NCBI GenBank assembly: GCA_001797815.1
Contig: MGQK01000132.1
Coordinates: 25,666 to 44,435 of the forward strand
DNA: 18,770 bases
Reading direction: 5' to 3'
DNA from: Deltaproteobacteria bacterium RBG_13_61_14
Lineage (GTDB): Bacteria; RBG-13-61-14
Position 1 is the first letter of the stretch, and the number at the start of each line of letters is the position of its first letter. A program made the position numbers and the translations under genes. Of this stretch, positions 3,501-10,067 are shown piece after piece. The notes beneath the pieces were generated by a model that saw only the letters and a program-made list of their open reading frames with translations, did no database searches and was not told the origin of the DNA.

Positions 3501-4586
3501 TCACGGTCGCATCGTCGGCGCGCCGTAGAACTTGCGCCCGAGCCAGAGCGAGACATTGACCAGCCCGATCAGGGCCGGCACTTCGACCAGCGGCCCGATG
3601 ACCGCGGCGAAAGCGGCGCCATGGTTGATGCCGAAGGTGGCGATGGCCACGGCGATGGCCAGCTCGAAGTTGTTGGACGCGGCGGTGAAGCTGAGGGTGG
3701 CCGCCTGTCCATAGTTCGCGCCGACCTTGCGGCTCATGAAGAACGAGATAAAGAACATCACCCCGAAGTAAATGAGCAGGGGGATGGCGATGCGCACCAC
3801 GTCCAGCGGGAGCTGCACGATGAACTCGCCCTTGAACGAGAACATCACGACGATGGTGAAGAGCAGCGCGATGAGCGTGACCGGGCTGATCTTGGGGATG
3901 AACTTTTCGTGGTACCATTGCTTGTCCTTCAGGTTGATCAGGGTGAAGCGCGTGATCACCCCGGCCAGGAAGGGGATGCCGAGGTAGATGAAGACGCTCT
4001 TGGCGATCTCGGCGATGGTGATGTTGACCGCCACGCCCGCGAGGCCGAACCAGGTGGGCAGCACGGTGATGAAGAGGTAGGCGTAGACCGAGAAGAAGAG
4101 GACCTGGAAGATGGAGTTGAACGCCACCAGGCCGGCGCAATACTCGGTGTCGCCCTTGGCCAGGTCGTTCCAGACAATGACCATGGCAATGCAGCGGGCC
4201 AGGCCGATCATGATCAGCCCCACCATGTATTCGGGCTTGTCGTGCAGGAAGAGTACCGCCAGGCCGAACATCAGGAACGGCCCCACGATCCAGTTCTGGA
4301 CCAGGGAAAGCCCGAGGACCTTGAAGTTCCGGAAGACCGGTCCCATTTCCTCGTAGCGGACTTTGGCCAGCGGCGGGTACATCATCAGGATCAGCCCGAT
4401 GGCGATGGGGATCGAGGTCGTCCCCACGCTGAACTTATCGAGCCAGGGCACGATCCCGGGGAAGAGATAGCCGGAACCCACGCCCACGGCCATGGCCAGG
4501 AAGATCCACACCGTGAGGAAGCGGTCGAGAAAGGATAGGCGCCGGGCGACGCCGCCGGACGCGAGGAGTTGAGCTTCATTTGTCAT
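3501..4586 (-). CDS. acr3: ACR3-family arsenite efflux permease
   Basis: This 361-residue inner-membrane protein with about ten helices expels arsenite (or antimonite) using the proton gradient. It belongs to the bile/arsenite/riboflavin transporter superfamily. Family features are [16 protein letters not shown], the essential cysteine motif [16 protein letters not shown] (Cys132, matching the cysteine known to be needed in ACR3) and [17 protein letters not shown]. The conserved C-terminal glutamate lies in [13 protein letters not shown]. The start ATG 4586 follows GGGGGT. It is the last arsenic gene on this strand, 67 nt downstream of the ArsG-like gene, and probably belongs to the arsR-led operon. 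The family call is secure from the cysteine motif and the complete length. Confidence 0.94.
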
Positions 4587-4653
4587 TGCATACCCCCGAG
4601 TGAAGCCGTTCCCGATAACGACGGCGCCACGGTCACTTCTTCTCTTCCCTTTT

Positions 4654-5346
4654 TCAAAAGTTCACCTGGAAAATATAGGTCAGGCAATAATAGATTCCCA
4701 CCAAAATAAAAATCCCTCCCGTCAGCCGGCGGGCCCATCGCTCCACCAGGGCCAGCCGGTCAAAAATCCTGCCCACCGACCGGGCGCTGAAGGCGAGCGC
4801 GATGGCGAAGGCCACCACCGGAAGCCCGGTGCCCAGCCCGTAAAGGGCCGGCATCAGTCCCGGGGATTGATGTTTCAAGGCGAGCGGGATCAGGCTGCCG
4901 AAGAAGAGCGCGGCGGAAACCGGGCAGAAGGAGAGCGCGAACACGATCCCCAATAAGCCGGCGCCCCAGACCCCGGCCCGCTCCATTTGCCCCTGGACTT
5001 TTTCTCCCGGGCCCCAGGAGGGAACGGGAAGTGAAATCCAGTCGAGCAAAAACATGCCGGCCAGGATCAGGACCGGGCCCAGGATTTGGTTCATGTATTT
5101 TTGCAGGAAGTTGGAAAGGCCCGGAACCTTCAACAGGCCGGCCACGATCAGAGCGCCCAGCGCGAGGTAGGTGAGGATGCGACCCAGGGTATAAAGCAGG
5201 CCGGCGAAGAGGACTTGCCGGCTCCGGCCCAGGCGGTTGCCGAGATAGGAGATGGCCGCGACGTTGGTCGCAAGCGGACAGGGGCTGATCGAGGTCAGGA
5301 TCCCCAGCCAGAGCGCCGCGGCCAGCCCGGAAAGAGAAAGGCTCAT
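4654..5346 (-). CDS. ArsG-like / CcdA-type membrane protein (thiol relay or aromatic arsenical efflux)
   Basis: This is a 230-residue protein with about six membrane helices and the CcdA/DsbD internal pseudo-repeat. Half one carries [10 protein letters not shown] (Cys23) and half two carries [10 protein letters not shown] (Cys141). In CcdA these paired cysteines move reducing equivalents across the membrane. The subfamily found beside ArsF-like proteins is called ArsG and was described in the arsEFG genes of Shewanella putrefaciens, which act on nitrophenyl arsenicals. Its start overlaps the arsF-like stop by 4 nt (ATGA), so the two are made together. It may be an exporter of aromatic arsenicals, as ArsG is named, or a thiol-electron conduit, as its cysteine pair suggests. 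The fold is sure; the exact function is not. Confidence 0.8.
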
Positions 5347-5864
5347 AGGTCCTCGACCAGGTAAGCCCGGACCTCGTCCTGGATGTATTTCTGAAAGTCG
5401 GCCTTGACCGTGAACAAGGTCCAGACCTGGTCCAGGTTTTTCCAGCGCGCCTCCCGGCCGTGATGCCGATCCGACAGGATCACGGACTTGGTGTAGAGCT
5501 GGTAGTCCTGGGCAAAGTGTTGATTCCCCGGCTCTTCAACATTGACCACCTGCCAGGTCAGGGTTCCACTTTTCAGTTCTTCCGCAAACCCGCTCTGGAT
5601 GGCCTCCTGGGTATAAGCCTCAATCTTCAAGCAGCTCGAGCAGCGGGCCCGGCCATGAAAATAATAGGCAACTACCTGGTGAGCAGGAGGAAGAGCCGCC
5701 TGGTCCGGTTCAGTTGCCGAAGCCGGGGCAGTTGAAGTGGGCAGGGGCTTGGTCGGCGGGTTGGGAGCTTCGGACCTTTGCCGCGATTCTTTGGCGATCA
5801 AAAAGGCGACGCTGGCCAGGACCAAAGCCAGGAGCAAAGCCGTTAGGATTTTTCTGGCCTTCAT
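5343..5864 (-). CDS. ArsF-like membrane-anchored CxxC protein
   Basis: The protein has 173 residues from ATG 5864. It has an N-terminal uncleaved-type membrane helix (MKARKILTAL onward), a Pro/Ala/Ser/Thr-rich linker at about 31-62, then a thioredoxin-like domain. That domain begins VVAYYFHGRARCSSC, with the redox pair Cys75 and Cys78. The domain should face the periplasm. It matches what annotators call the nitrophenyl compound nitroreductase subunit ArsF family, from the arsEFG organoarsenical genes. A longer ATG at 5930 would put about 22 hydrophilic residues ahead of the helix and has GGAAGGG directly against the ATG, which is too close for initiation. ATG 5864 has AAGGGG about 12 nt upstream, so the start is not certain. 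It is coupled to the ArsG-like gene by ATGA. Confidence 0.75.
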   Translation of the reverse strand: MKARKILTALLLALVLASVAFLIAKESRQRSEAPNPPTKPLPTSTAPASATEPDQAALPPAHQVVAYYFHGRARCSSCLKIEAYTQEAIQSGFAEELKSGTLTWQVVNVEEPGNQHFAQDYQLYTKSVILSDRHHGREARWKNLDQVWTLFTVKADFQKYIQDEVRAYLVEDL

Positions 5865-5939
5865 TGCTTTAGTTACCCCTTTTTCTCTTCTGAATAAGAC
5901 CTGAAGGTGCAAGGGCGATGCGCGAACCATCCCTTCCGG

Positions 5940-6200
5940 TCAAGATCCTTGGGACTTCTGAATCAGCTCCTTGACCTTGGCGACATTGGGCAATGGCTTG
6001 CCCTGATGCGCCACCTTTTCGTTGATCACCAGCCCCGGCGTCATCATCAGGTACTTGCGAATCTCGTTCAGGTCCGTGACATATTTTACTTCCGCATCCC
6101 TCCCCAGTCCCAGCTCCTGGAGCGCGGTCTGCGTCGTTTCCAGGAGCGTCTTGCAGTTGATGCACCCCGGCCCTAACACCTTGATCTTCAAATCCGCCAT
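5940..6200 (-). CDS. Small thioredoxin-fold CxxC protein (TM0996/redox-active disulfide type; possible ArsE)
   Basis: This is an 86-residue cytosolic protein of the small thioredoxin family known as redox-active disulfide protein 2. The active site GPGCINCK (Cys13, Cys16) follows the first beta strand. The cis-proline region MTPGLVINEKVAHQGKPL is typical of the fold. The start ATG 6200 has a strong GAGGAGGA Shine-Dalgarno, part of which lies inside the previous gene's end (2-nt gap), indicating coupling. Such proteins often sit between a DUF318/ArsP_1 permease and ArsR, exactly as here. In the arsEFG scheme it sits in the ArsE position. It could pass electrons to the ArsG/ArsF pair or reduce an arsenical directly. 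Whether it corresponds to ArsE is inference. Confidence 0.85.
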   Translation of the reverse strand: MADLKIKVLGPGCINCKTLLETTQTALQELGLGRDAEVKYVTDLNEIRKYLMMTPGLVINEKVAHQGKPLPNVAKVKELIQKSQGS

Positions 6201-6202
6201 GT

Positions 6203-6430
6203 TTATTCCTCCTCTCCATTTTTGGAAGTCTTGTGAAAGGCGCCGGCCGGATTCCGCTCCCCATCCAGGTGCGATTTCAGCCGGCTCTCCTGGGAAACCA
6301 GCAGTTTCCGGTAAACCGATTGCCGCAAAAAATGAAACGCGCCCTCCCGGTCCTGGTCGGTCATGATCCGCTCCAATTCCATGACCTCAGCCGGTTCCAA
6401 ACTTAAACTCTTGCGCGTGATCTCCAACAT
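6203..6430 (-). CDS. Small uncharacterised protein of the ars operon
   Basis: This 75-residue acidic and basic helical protein has no signal, no membrane helix and no cysteine. It begins MLEITRKSLSLEPAEVMELE and has a central segment DQDREGAFHFLRQSVYRKL. The C-terminus SRLKSHLDGERNP looks flexible. I do not recognise a named domain. It is judged real because ATG 6430 has GGAGG at good distance, it fits tightly between two operon genes (33 nt from the permease stop, 2 nt to the thioredoxin-like start), and its frame is intact. Its position implies a soluble partner of the permease or the redox protein, which is inference. Confidence 0.7.
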   Translation of the reverse strand: MLEITRKSLSLEPAEVMELERIMTDQDREGAFHFLRQSVYRKLLVSQESRLKSHLDGERNPAGAFHKTSKNGEEE

Positions 6431-6457
6431 CTTCGATGCCTCCGGCTCTCCTCGCCC

Positions 6458-6477
6458 GCGCGCTTAAAAAAGCGCGC
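6458..6477. other. Hairpin straddling the permease stop codon
   Basis: GCGCGCTT, a 4-nt AAAA loop, then AAGCGCGC (plus strand) form a perfect 8-bp stem exactly over the TAA of the permease gene. On the minus-strand transcript the loop is UUUU, and no U-run follows the stem. It may be an mRNA processing or partial termination point between the permease and downstream genes. Confidence 0.45.
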
Positions 6478-7762
6478 CGTAGATCATGCCGCTGAAGGTG
6501 GCCATCACGACCACCAGCGCGATATAGACAACCGTCTTGGCGGTGCCGAGCACGCTCCGGATCACCAGCATATTCGGAAGTGAAAGCGCCGGCCCGGCCA
6601 GGAGCAGCGCCAGCGCCGGACCCTGGCCCATGCCGCTGCCGAGCAGGCCTTGCACAATCGGGACCTCGGTGAGCGTGGCAAAATACATGAAGGCTCCGGC
6701 GACCGCAGCAAAGAGGTTCGCGGCCCAAGAGTTCCCGCCCACGGCCCGGCCGACCCAGGCCGAAGGGATCAGCCCCTCTTCTCCCGGCCGGCCCAGAAGA
6801 ATCCCGGCGGCCAGGACCCCGAGCAAAAGCAGGGGCAGGATTTGCTTGGCAAAGCCCCAGGTCTGGCTGAACCACTCGCCGCTCTCGCCGTCCTCGCCGG
6901 CGGTGAGCACGGCCAGGCCGAGCGCCCCGGCCGCAAACGGGAGCAGGGGAACTTCCGGAAAGACAAGCGCCAGGATCGCGGTCGGAACCGCGACCGCCAG
7001 CACTTTCCACCATTTCAACCCGAACCATGCGATCAGCATGGCGGCGAAGCTAATGGCGGCCGCGGCGGTAAGCAGCCACTTGACTGAGTAAATCGCGGAC
7101 CAGAAACCGGCGGCATCTTCAGCTTTGCCCCAGTTGGCAAAGACCAGGATCGCGACCATGACCGCAAAATAAATCGCGGTCTGCCAGAGCGGCCGGCCGG
7201 CTTCCGGCTCGGGCAGGTCCGCCTGGGCCTCGGCCTTTTGCATTTCTTCTCTCCGGAAGATCAGGAACATGAGCAGGCCGATCACCACACTGAAAAGTAT
7301 CGCGCCGACCGCGCGGGCCACGCCCAGCTTAAGCCCGAGGACGCGGGCGGTCAGGATGATGGCGAGCACGTTGATGGCCGGGCCGGAGTAGAGGAAGGCG
7401 GTGGCCGGCCCGAGCCCGGCGCCCCTCGAGTAGATGCCGGCGAAAAGGGGGAGCACGGTGCAGGAGCACACGGCCAGGATGGTGCCGGAGACCGAGGCCA
7501 CGCCGTAGGCCAGGACCGGGTTGGCCTTGGCGCCTAAATACTTGATCACCGAGGCCTGGCGGACAAAAGCGGCGATGGCGCCGGCGATGAAGAAGGCCGG
7601 GACCAGGCACAGGAGCACGTGCTCGCGGGCGTACCACTTGACCAGGGCCAGCCCTTCCAGAATGGCGTGGTCGAAGCGCTCCCGGCCCACCGGCAGGGTG
7701 TAGGCGATGGCGAACGCGGCGGCAATCGCCGCCAGAGTCTTAGCTTCTTTTTTCCAATCCAT
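6464..7762 (-). CDS. DUF318/ArsP_1-type permease (putative organoarsenical or metal exporter)
   Basis: This is a 432-residue protein with about ten predicted helices in two halves. The first half has the family signature SGTILAVCSCTVLPLFAGIY (Cys99, Cys101), followed by YSGPAINVLAIILT. The second half repeats the pattern as FATLTEVPIVQGLLGSGMG and LLLAGPALSLPNMLVI. Families named ArsP include exporters of trivalent organoarsenicals, and many DUF318 members lie in ars or metal operons. The start is ATG 7762 (MDWKKEAKTL). The open frame runs 34 codons further upstream into arsR, but those residues are not membrane-like and overlap arsR out of frame. It lies 40 nt after arsR. Substrate by context: an arsenical. 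Chemistry not proven. Confidence 0.82.
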   Translation of the reverse strand: MDWKKEAKTLAAIAAAFAIAYTLPVGRERFDHAILEGLALVKWYAREHVLLCLVPAFFIAGAIAAFVRQASVIKYLGAKANPVLAYGVASVSGTILAVCSCTVLPLFAGIYSRGAGLGPATAFLYSGPAINVLAIILTARVLGLKLGVARAVGAILFSVVIGLLMFLIFRREEMQKAEAQADLPEPEAGRPLWQTAIYFAVMVAILVFANWGKAEDAAGFWSAIYSVKWLLTAAAAISFAAMLIAWFGLKWWKVLAVAVPTAILALVFPEVPLLPFAAGALGLAVLTAGEDGESGEWFSQTWGFAKQILPLLLLGVLAAGILLGRPGEEGLIPSAWVGRAVGGNSWAANLFAAVAGAFMYFATLTEVPIVQGLLGSGMGQGPALALLLAGPALSLPNMLVIRSVLGTAKTVVYIALVVVMATFSGMIYGALF

Positions 7763-7802
7763 GATCTGGAATCCGCGACCGCAGAGCGGCAGCGGCTGCC
7801 TC

Positions 7803-8123
7803 CTACTTGACCAGGGCCAATTGCTTTTGGGCGGTGGTTTTGAGCGCGGATTCCACGCAGTCAAACAGGTCGAGCAGACAAGGACAGCTCAGGCTGTAGA
7901 AGACCTGGTTGCCGCGCTTCTCGTCGGCCACGATCCCCGCGGCCTTGAGGATGGAAAGGTGCTTGGACACGGTGGAGATGTCGGCGCCGACCATCTCGGT
8001 GAGTTTGCACACGCAGATTTCCCGGCGGGCCAACTGGTCCACCAGGAAGAGCCGGGTGGGATGGGCCAGGGCCTTGACGATCCTGGCCCGGGCCGCGAAG
8101 CGCGCCTGGGTTTTAGGATCCAC
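7803..8123 (-). CDS. arsR: ArsR-family metalloid-responsive repressor
   Basis: This is a 106-residue winged-helix repressor of the ArsR/SmtB family. It binds operator DNA and releases it when As(III) or a related ion is bound. The sensor site EICVCKL (Cys37, Cys39) in helix 3 matches the classic ELCVCDL arsenic site. The recognition helix is ISTVSKHLSILKAAG and the wing is EKRGNQVFYSL. Three further cysteines, Cys80, Cys82 and Cys89 (SCPCLLDLFDC), could complete or add a site. The start is GTG 8123, because a perfect AAGGAGGT sits 4 nt upstream. An ATG at 8171 lies above the -10 box and is not used. It is the first gene of the minus-strand operon and likely represses its own promoter. Confidence 0.95.
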   Translation of the reverse strand: MDPKTQARFAARARIVKALAHPTRLFLVDQLARREICVCKLTEMVGADISTVSKHLSILKAAGIVADEKRGNQVFYSLSCPCLLDLFDCVESALKTTAQKQLALVK

Positions 8124-8127
8124 GGGA

Positions 8128-8135
8128 ACCTCCTT
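8128..8135 (-). promoter_or_regulatory. Ribosome binding site deciding the arsR GTG start
   Basis: AAGGAGGT on the minus strand is a full anti-16S match, 4 nt before GTG 8123. It fixes the start downstream of the longer open frame. Confidence 0.85.
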
Positions 8136-8143
8136 AAGGTTTC

Positions 8144-8159
8144 CTATTTGGTAATATAG
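8144..8159. promoter_or_regulatory. Candidate ArsR operator over the -10 box
   Basis: CTATTTGGTAATATAG is an imperfect palindrome: four outer base pairs CTAT/ATAG, plus one inner pair. It covers the -10 box of the arsR promoter, where an ArsR repressor would block polymerase. It is a short AT-rich site, so chance is possible. Confidence 0.35.
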
Positions 8160-8181
8160 CCAAGTTCTCAAGGTTTGTCAA
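8153..8181 (-). promoter_or_regulatory. Near-consensus sigma-70 promoter of the arsR operon
   Basis: On the minus strand a perfect -35 TTGACA (8181-8176) is followed by 17 bp and -10 TATATT (8158-8153). Transcription should begin near 8146, leaving about 23 nt before GTG 8123, which holds the ribosome site. It is the best promoter in the window and is placed to drive the entire operon. Confidence 0.85.
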
Positions 8182-8325: not shown

Positions 8326-9006
8326 GTGGCCAGCTTTGTTTACATGAAGATCCTGGAGTCGCAGCCCCGCCGCTATGACCGGGGCATCGCCTGGCTCAGC
8401 CTGGGCCGGGCGCCGGCAATCAAGCAGCGGATCGCGCAGGAGTTCGGCCGGGAAGGCGTGCAGGTCTTGGAGATCGGCGCGGGCACGGGCGAGCTGGCGG
8501 TCTTGCTGGCGAAAACCGGGGCCAAGGTCGCCGGCTTTGACCAGTCCGCGGCCATGCTGGAAGTGGCCCGGCAAAAGGTCGCGGCTCAGGGGTTGGCCGA
8601 GCGGGTCAAGATCCGCGAGCTGGGCGTGGCCGAGATGGACCGGGCCTTCACCGACTCCTCCTTTGACCTGGTGGTGAGCACGCTGGTTTTCAGCGAGCTT
8701 ACCTCCGACGAGCAGCGGTATGCTTTGGCCCAGGCCTTTCGGGTGCTCAAGCCCGGCGGCATCCTGGCGCTGGCCGATGAAGTCCGGCCCGCGACCGGTT
8801 TCAAGCGAATGCTCTACTATCTGATTCGGTTGCCCCTGGCCCTGGTCACGTTCGCGCTGACCCAGACCAGCACGCGGGCGGTGGCGGGCCTGGAGGACAA
8901 GGTGCGGGAGGCCGGGTTCGCGATCGAGCAGGCCGAGAGAAGCGCCTTTGATAGTTTCCTCTACCTGAAAGCCCGCAAAATCCTGGCACAAGAAGGTCGC
9001 TCATGA
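8326..9006 (+). CDS. Class I SAM-dependent methyltransferase, CpaM-like (corrinoid-protein-associated)
   Basis: This is a 226-residue Rossmann-fold methyltransferase. Motif I is VLEIGAGTGELAVLL (47-61), the ribose-binding acidic residue is in GFDQS (Asp72), and motif IV is DLVVSTLVFSEL. The post-motif loop is RVLKPGGILALADE. The N-terminus, starting MASFVYMKILESQPRRYDRG from GTG 8326, resembles the CpaM group found beside HgcAB-like corrinoid proteins. A hydrophobic stretch YYLIRLPLALVTFAL lies near 165-180. It overlaps the next gene by 4 nt (ATGA). By partnership it may methylate the corrinoid protein, its cofactor or a shared substrate; the reaction is not established. ATG 8344 is an alternative start, but would remove the characteristic N-terminus. 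Confidence 0.82.
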   Translation: MASFVYMKILESQPRRYDRGIAWLSLGRAPAIKQRIAQEFGREGVQVLEIGAGTGELAVLLAKTGAKVAGFDQSAAMLEVARQKVAAQGLAERVKIRELGVAEMDRAFTDSSFDLVVSTLVFSELTSDEQRYALAQAFRVLKPGGILALADEVRPATGFKRMLYYLIRLPLALVTFALTQTSTRAVAGLEDKVREAGFAIEQAERSAFDSFLYLKARKILAQEGRS

Positions 9007-10067
9007 ACAAGCTCTGGGGATTCATCGTCGCCTACTTTCTGCGCTGGTTTCCGCACGGACTCGAACCGGGCCTGCGCCGGATCGGGAACCCCGGGCCGGA
9101 AAGCCCGGTCCTCGTTAGCGGCAACTTTTCCCTGACCCTGAAAAGGCTGATCCGGTCTCTGGTCGGGCAGGACCTGTGGCTGCTGGTGGCCAACTCCCGG
9201 GGCATCAATGTCTGGTGCGCGGCCGTGGGCGGCATGTTCACCCACCACAACGTGATTGCGGCGATCAAGACCTCGGGCCTGGCCGATCAGGTTCGGCATC
9301 GGGAAGTGATCCTGCCTCAGCTCTGCGCGGCGGGCATGGACGTCAAGGCCATCCGGGAGGAGGCCGGCTTCCAGGTCCGCTTCGGGCCGGTCCGGGCGGA
9401 GGATCTCCCGGCTTACCTGGCCCAAGGCAAGAAGAAGACGGATGCCATGAGCCGCTTCCGTTTTGACCTGCGGCATCGCCTGGACATGCTCCTTTCCAAC
9501 AACACCATGTTCTACCTGATCGTGGCCATCCCCCTCGCCATCTTCTGGCCTCACCGGCTCCTGGCCTTCACCCTGCTCTTCTGGGCCGCGGCCTTCTACC
9601 TTTACTTGTTGTTCCCGTATCTCCCGGGCAAGACCGGCTGGAGCCGATCCCTTTACTCCGCCCTGGCCGTGGTCCTCGCCATCCCGGCTGCCGATTTCTT
9701 CCGCGCCGGCCAGCCCTTCCTCCACTACGGCTGGATGATCGCCGTCGTCCTGGTCTTCTCTACCGTCGGCTTTGATGCCGCCGGCATCCTCGCGGCCATG
9801 CCCAGCGACGCCGAAGCCTTCCTCCACCGCCTCGGCATCAAGCGGCTCGGCTCGCTCTTGCAGGAAAAGACCCTGGGCCGGGTCGCGCTCGACCGGGAAA
9901 AGTGCCGGGGCGACATGATCTGCTACTCCATCTGCCCGGTCGGGGTATTCGGCGAGCTGGACCCGGACAAAAAGATCACCCTCCCTTGGCAAAACGCTTG
10001 CTTCGCCTGCGGCGCTTGCGTCAAACAATGCCCCCACGACGCCTTGAGCTTGCAACCCAGACCTTGA
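9003..10067 (+). CDS. HgcAB-like fusion protein (corrinoid domain, membrane helices, ferredoxin domain)
   Basis: This 354-residue protein joins on one chain what HgcA and HgcB provide separately in mercury methylators. Residues about 30-140 form a corrinoid-binding domain like that of HgcA and the CFeSP large subunit. It has the cap-helix motif NVWCAAVGG with Cys72, the residue that ligates cobalt in HgcA, and the family segment VILPQLCAAGMD. Residues about 165-265 hold four hydrophobic helices. Residues 297-350 are a two-cluster ferredoxin domain, C301xxD304xxC307xxxC311P and C333xxC336xxC339xxxC343P. Departures from true HgcAB are the loss of the GK after the cap motif, Asp304 in place of a cysteine, and no C-terminal cysteine pair. 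Fused HgcAB-like proteins are known in other microbes and are not thought to methylate mercury. Likely role: corrinoid-dependent methyl transfer with built-in cobalt reduction; substrate unknown. Confidence 0.88.
   Translation: MNKLWGFIVAYFLRWFPHGLEPGLRRIGNPGPESPVLVSGNFSLTLKRLIRSLVGQDLWLLVANSRGINVWCAAVGGMFTHHNVIAAIKTSGLADQVRHREVILPQLCAAGMDVKAIREEAGFQVRFGPVRAEDLPAYLAQGKKKTDAMSRFRFDLRHRLDMLLSNNTMFYLIVAIPLAIFWPHRLLAFTLLFWAAAFYLYLLFPYLPGKTGWSRSLYSALAVVLAIPAADFFRAGQPFLHYGWMIAVVLVFSTVGFDAAGILAAMPSDAEAFLHRLGIKRLGSLLQEKTLGRVALDREKCRGDMICYSICPVGVFGELDPDKKITLPWQNACFACGACVKQCPHDALSLQPRP

Follow-up and report, generated by a model that had tools for sequence, protein, structure and literature searches.

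The window, the whole stretch of 18,770 nucleotides from Deltaproteobacteria bacterium RBG_13_61_14 that we analyzed, encodes a protein in which an HgcA-like corrinoid part with membrane helices and an HgcB-like ferredoxin form a single chain, preceded by a gene for the methyltransferase CpaM (Table 1). The fusion protein scores 394.6 bits against the NCBIfam HgcAB_like fusion profile NF043039 (cut-off 285), with residues 7-349 aligned to profile positions 3-350, and falls below the cut-offs of both the HgcA profile NF040863 (171.3 versus 275 bits) and the HgcB profile NF040864 (43.7 versus 99 bits). Judged by these matches, it is a member of the already known HgcAB-like fusion family, which probably goes back to Haft and Gwadz (2023).

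Table 1. Features of the window, with residue numbers of the fusion protein where applicable
Feature	Position	Strand	Basis
Arsenic cluster: Acr3, ArsG, ArsF, ArsE, ArsP-like permease, ArsR with CVC motif	3501-8171	-	Profile matches
CpaM, SAM-dependent methyltransferase (NF043040)	8326..9006	+	293.5 bits, cut-off 180
HgcAB-like fusion protein, 354 aa	9003..10067	+	NF043039 match, structure model
Corrinoid-binding domain, residues 17-141	9051..9425	+	CdhD PF03599, structural match to CFeSP large subunit
Cys72, NVWCA cap-helix motif, equivalent of cobalt-ligating HgcA Cys93	9216..9218	+	Conservation, PMC7305189
Membrane helices, residues 156-256	9468..9770	+	Hydrophobic helices of model, HgcA alignment
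C-terminal dicluster ferredoxin domain, residues 289-354	9867..10064	+	Fer4 families, structure matches
Ferredoxin motif 1, C301xxD304xxC307xxxC311P	9903..9938	+	DNA, translation, conservation table
Asp304, codon GAC, at second-Cys place of motif 1	9912..9914	+	DNA
Ferredoxin motif 2, C333xxC336xxC339xxxC343P, complete	9999..10034	+	Translation, 67/67 invariant

The AlphaFold2 model of the fusion is of high confidence (mean pLDDT of 93.2, with 92 and 97 for residue blocks 291-300 and 301-310). In structure searches, its corrinoid domain matches the CFeSP large subunit (Z 21.1, rmsd 1.5), and the chain aligns to HgcA of the published HgcAB model 9a0b_A (Z 15.8). Long hydrophobic helices span residues 156-181, 183-206, 212-235, and 242-256, and the C-terminal domain folds as a dicluster ferredoxin, with ferredoxin structures at Z 7-9; the 7Fe ferredoxins of Acidianus and Sulfolobus are among the sequence and structure matches. 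Cys72 is a cysteine in 67/67 aligned fusions, and a cobalt-ligand role has been reported for its HgcA equivalent Cys93 (PMC7305189).

CpaM is coupled to the fusion and recurs with its relatives

The stop codon of cpaM overlaps the start of the fusion gene by 4 bases, which indicates translational coupling. CpaM, described by NCBI solely as a partner of corrinoid proteins, is the only near-universal neighbor of the fusions, adjoining or fused to nearly every relative. The domains are combined in several ways: most relatives have HgcA-HgcB, the CpaM-HgcA fusion occurs in the window's genome and in Chloroflexi, and locus L028 has CpaM-HgcA-HgcB. All three parts form one chain in L028, L029, and L108, as recognized by profile search for the first and by length and motif for the other two, and these single-chain fusions tie the function of CpaM directly to the corrinoid protein.

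The window's genome has a second locus (L002, contig C51), with a CpaM-HgcA-like fusion at 772-2364 followed by an HgcB-like ferredoxin at 2346-2615, both below the HgcA and HgcB cut-offs in profile searches. Since this ferredoxin has two full motifs, including the second cysteine of motif 1, and a Cys-rich tail, one organism has both types. An ArsR-like helix-turn-helix protein is encoded upstream (328-720).

The arsenic cluster of the window is divergent from cpaM and begins 154 bases away. A near-perfect sigma-70 site (TTGACA-17-TATATT, 8153-8181, minus strand) overlaps the listed TTG start of arsR at 8171, so the true start is probably further inside.

An aspartate at the second cysteine place of motif 1

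A sequence-only reading of this DNA had described a first ferredoxin motif with Asp in place of its second Cys next to a complete second motif, which is what both the DNA and the translation contain. Motif 1 reads EKC301RGD304MIC307YSIC311P, with TGC codons for C301 (9903-9905), C307 (9921-9923), and C311 (9933-9935), and motif 2 reads C333-FA-C336-GA-C339-VKQ-C343-P. With D304 in motif 1, the protein departs from the two complete CxxCxxCxxxCP motifs of HgcB, and it fits the CxxDxxC ferredoxin pattern (C301xxD304xxC307 plus C343), the other cysteines being retained. The extra Cys of the CPxxC motif of 7Fe-type ferredoxins is absent, the sequence being CPVGV with V315. The chain ends HDALSLQPRP-stop, 11 residues past C343 and with no further Cys; it lacks the C-terminal cysteine pair of HgcB, as the same reading had pointed out, and also the equivalent of HgcB Cys73, a Cys about 12 residues past motif 2. 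The missing Cys tail is a known trait of the HgcAB-like family and nothing new about this locus. Because at least two base changes are needed to turn GAC into either Cys codon (TGC or TGT), a single sequencing error is ruled out, and sequencing error as the source of Asp304 was judged unlikely.

Position 304 alone varies among the ferredoxin cysteines

We determined how widespread this replacement is using a genome scan with an alignment profile, keeping the best 80 of 564 matches as loci. These were chosen by patterns in the HgcA part, which makes the selection independent of the ferredoxin motif. With loci from whole-genome searches added, 67 fusions could be aligned, all sampled relatives being below about 54% identity to the window protein and the phylum of G003 being represented by one genome. 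A contig scan seeded with the window protein alone returned no relatives, nor did the viral contigs searched, and the gene is absent from the two genomes of the organism's own order.

The residue at position 304 in the 67 fusions is Cys in 27, Ala in 17, Val in 11, Ile and Thr in 4 each, Asp in 2, and Arg and Met in 1 each, proportions that hold for the sampled set since four of the five seeds used in the scan belong to the sister clade of the window's own. The remaining seven ferredoxin cysteines are each present in 67/67. Five additional fusions from a separate search have Ala once and Cys four times at this position. Since position 304 alone varies while the seven other cysteines are invariant, Asp304 is beyond chance. 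Cluster A, as defined below, would have just three Cys ligands in most of the HgcAB-like proteins sampled.

In trees built without the ferredoxin columns, the window protein falls in a clade whose other members have Cys at 304 in 22/22 rows (careful tree; 20/20 in another tally). It is nested in supported clades of 7 rows (98/92) and 10 rows (95/92) in which every other member has Cys, and the six nearest sampled relatives (48-53% identity) all have Cys as well. The sequence-only reading had proposed to check Asp304 for conservation, and the answer goes largely against it. The sister clade is non-Cys at 304 in 39/41, mostly Ala, Val, Ile, or Thr, and contains the only second Asp among the 67 fusions (L055). 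Because of its nested placement, the Asp of the window protein is a private change, separate from that of L055. At minimum, Cys/non-Cys changes occurred 4 times among the fusions and 6 times when separate ferredoxins are included.

The CPxxC Cys is present in 37/41 of the sister clade and, overall, in 42/47 sequences that lost the second motif-1 Cys and absent in 38/41 that kept it. Strong as this association is across clades, we do not claim that the CPxxC Cys compensates for the loss, as just 3 supported independent pairs are available and they give no signal; an association between the Cys tail and loss of the second Cys is likewise not claimed.

Separate ferredoxins vary at this position as well. 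In Chloroflexi CpaM-HgcA loci, 7/9 have Val, Ile, or Leu at 304 and no Cys-rich tail; the Chloroflexi ferredoxins of L048, L060, L072, L083, L086, L087, and L093 are without the second motif-1 Cys and have CPxxC. The second motif-1 Cys is kept in every sampled canonical HgcB with a Cys tail, and likewise in 5/5 members of a fusion clade with such a tail (L057, L068, and L088-L090). These five and L109 share a CxCPTC tail past motif 2 and have the second Cys, an ArsR-type regulator lies near L068 and L088-L090, and the group is possibly a fused form still handling a thiol-binding metal. As far as the alignment indicates, one ligand is dispensable and seven are fixed, the loss recurring widely in the non-mercury family sampled. 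We did not find this pattern described in searchable papers, which is weak evidence of novelty.

Predicted role of the altered cluster

In HgcB, cluster A is held by the first three motif-1 positions and the last motif-2 Cys, while cluster B is held by the motif-2 cysteines and the fourth motif-1 Cys and lies 14.9 A from cobalt in the model (PMC7305189). By homology, D304 is predicted to be the fourth ligand of cluster A, distal from cobalt, and the cobalt-proximal cluster B would be intact (Cys 311, 333, 336, and 339). That Asp can be a ligand at this place, as the sequence-only reading had stated, is established for Asp14 of Pyrococcus furiosus ferredoxin (PMC8097209), and CxxDxxC clusters can interconvert between 4Fe and 3Fe forms (PMC9868604). 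Our guess is that Asp304 ligates an iron of cluster A. Its side chain may instead be turned from the cluster, as is the His of CxxHxxC 3Fe ferredoxins (PMC9868604).

The explanation that we consider reasonably probable is that the fusion, an HgcA-like corrinoid protein anchored in the membrane and joined to a dicluster ferredoxin of the HgcB type, cooperates with the coupled CpaM and has undergone a tolerated Cys-to-Asp change at its distal cluster. Electrons would pass from cluster A to cluster B and on to cobalt, yielding Co(I), which would be methylated either via CpaM or directly by SAM, the methyl donor for HgcAB (PMC11588087). The methyl group would then go to an acceptor other than Hg(II) from HgcB thiols, excluded here because the thiols are missing. 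Cluster A, whose fourth ligand appears to have switched from Cys to Asp in the window sequence alone, would probably be a [4Fe-4S] cluster with Asp as a ligand, readily converted to [3Fe-4S] by loss of iron. Asp304 would thus represent a tolerated, lineage-specific change at a repeatedly dispensed ligand rather than an adaptation for stronger reduction. Most likely, the protein itself is a methyl-transferring corrinoid protein whose distal cluster is labile or ligated by Asp.

Alternative explanations

A possible, if less favored, alternative is that cluster A is of the plain [3Fe-4S] kind seen in 7Fe-type ferredoxins, with Asp304 no ligand at all and equivalent to any other non-Cys residue. 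This would fit the Ala, Val, Ile, or Thr found across most of the sister clade, where the dominant non-ligating Ala, Val, and Ile suggest a [3Fe-4S] ground state, the CPxxC motif in the great majority of that clade, and the matches to Acidianus and Sulfolobus 7Fe ferredoxins. CPxxC occurs in 7Fe ferredoxins such as Azotobacter FdI. However, the window protein has V315 in place of that Cys, Asp is capable of ligating iron, and the rest of its clade has full Cys motifs.

It is unlikely that the fusion acts jointly with the divergent ars cluster in methyl chemistry of arsenic (or antimony or selenium). The neighborhood is suggestive, with genes for ArsR, an ArsP-like permease, ArsE, ArsF, ArsG, and Acr3 next to cpaM. 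ArsR-type regulators and ars genes are known near hgcAB (PMC7438021), and in the Phycisphaerales locus L101 hgcAB is flanked by ArsR, ArsP, ArsE, ArsF, and Acr3 homologs of the window cluster. Yet a conserved ars neighborhood was rejected, as the CpaM-fusion loci searched contain no ArsP, ArsE, ArsF, or Acr3 match to the window proteins, CpaM being the sole conserved partner.

More doubtful still is the idea that the open or labile iron of a three-Cys cluster A binds SAM, a thiolate, or an ion of a metal or metalloid as its substrate, the ferredoxin domain serving as a docking or catalytic site. The cluster of Desulfovibrio africanus FdIII takes up thiolate and metal ions (PMC13111528), and it has been argued that the clusters of HgcB, being held by four Cys each, are closed to SAM (PMC11588087), an argument that does not extend to most HgcAB-like relatives. 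If true, the ferredoxin domain would be more than an electron wire, where canonical HgcB relies on its tail thiols.

We find it very improbable that the Asp ligand is an adaptation tuning the ferredoxin for cobalt reduction, as the sequence-only reading had proposed. Fusion to a corrinoid protein does make cobalt reduction a likely job of the ferredoxin, but the Asp is private to one sequence, the cluster predicted to lie near cobalt is unchanged, and Cys, Ala, or Val serve in relatives of equal architecture. The potential also moves in the wrong direction: P. furiosus ferredoxin is reported at about -350 mV with Asp and -397 mV in the Cys variant (PMC8097209), while the Co(II)/Co(I) couple, going by the analogous CFeSP, should lie below -500 mV (PMC7305189). 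Since the Asp potential lies above that of Cys, away from Co(II)/Co(I), Asp304 would not tune cobalt reduction and, if anything, would raise the potential of the upstream relay.

Least credible of all is a mercury methylator with a different Hg delivery route, because, although its corrinoid domain resembles that of HgcA and has the NVWC cap motif, the protein misses both the HgcA and HgcB cut-offs and lacks both Cys73, whose change to Ala abolishes MeHg in D. desulfuricans, and the tail cysteines, whose joint loss nearly does (PMC7305189), and because the fused HgcAB of cultured P. furiosus and Methanococcoides methylutens gave MeHg not above controls (PMC5893877). The case against mercury delivery is therefore sound, although it already follows from membership in the HgcAB-like family. 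What stands of the sequence-only interpretation is the motif, the missing Cys tail, and the argument against mercury delivery, whereas the tuning for cobalt is unsupported and Asp304 is private to this sequence.

Comparison with known systems

The fusion shares its corrinoid fold with the large subunit of CFeSP from the Wood-Ljungdahl pathway, at the Z score and rmsd given above. That subunit has a single-cluster domain at its N-terminus and is not known to have a membrane anchor or a Cys as lower ligand to cobalt.

With CxxDxxC ferredoxins, i.e., P. furiosus ferredoxin, D. africanus FdIII, and the 7Fe ferredoxins of Sulfolobus and Acidianus, the protein shares an Asp at the same ligand place. 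Its motif is instead located in a domain at the C-terminus of a corrinoid protein with membrane helices, and P. furiosus ferredoxin has a single cluster whereas this domain is dicluster.

HgcA and HgcB (NF040863 and NF040864) have in common with it the corrinoid domain with the NVWC cap, the membrane helices, and the dicluster ferredoxin. They are two chains, however, while the window protein is one, under both cut-offs and without one motif-1 Cys, the Cys73 equivalent, and the C-terminal Cys pair.

The closest known systems are the HgcAB-like fusions accompanied by CpaM and the fused HgcAB of P. furiosus, M. methylutens, Kosmotoga, and Atribacteria, with which the window protein shares domain order, profile, and methyltransferase; most of these, like it, are without the HgcB-type Cys tail. 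Such fusions confound searches for mercury methylators, and the one-position pattern is a candidate sequence mark for much of the non-mercury branch. It also poses a spectroscopic question, namely whether the distal cluster is 3Fe, Asp-ligated, or open. What distinguishes the window protein is the Asp that takes the second Cys place in motif 1, where its own clade otherwise has Cys and the sister clade has Ala, Val, Ile, or Thr.
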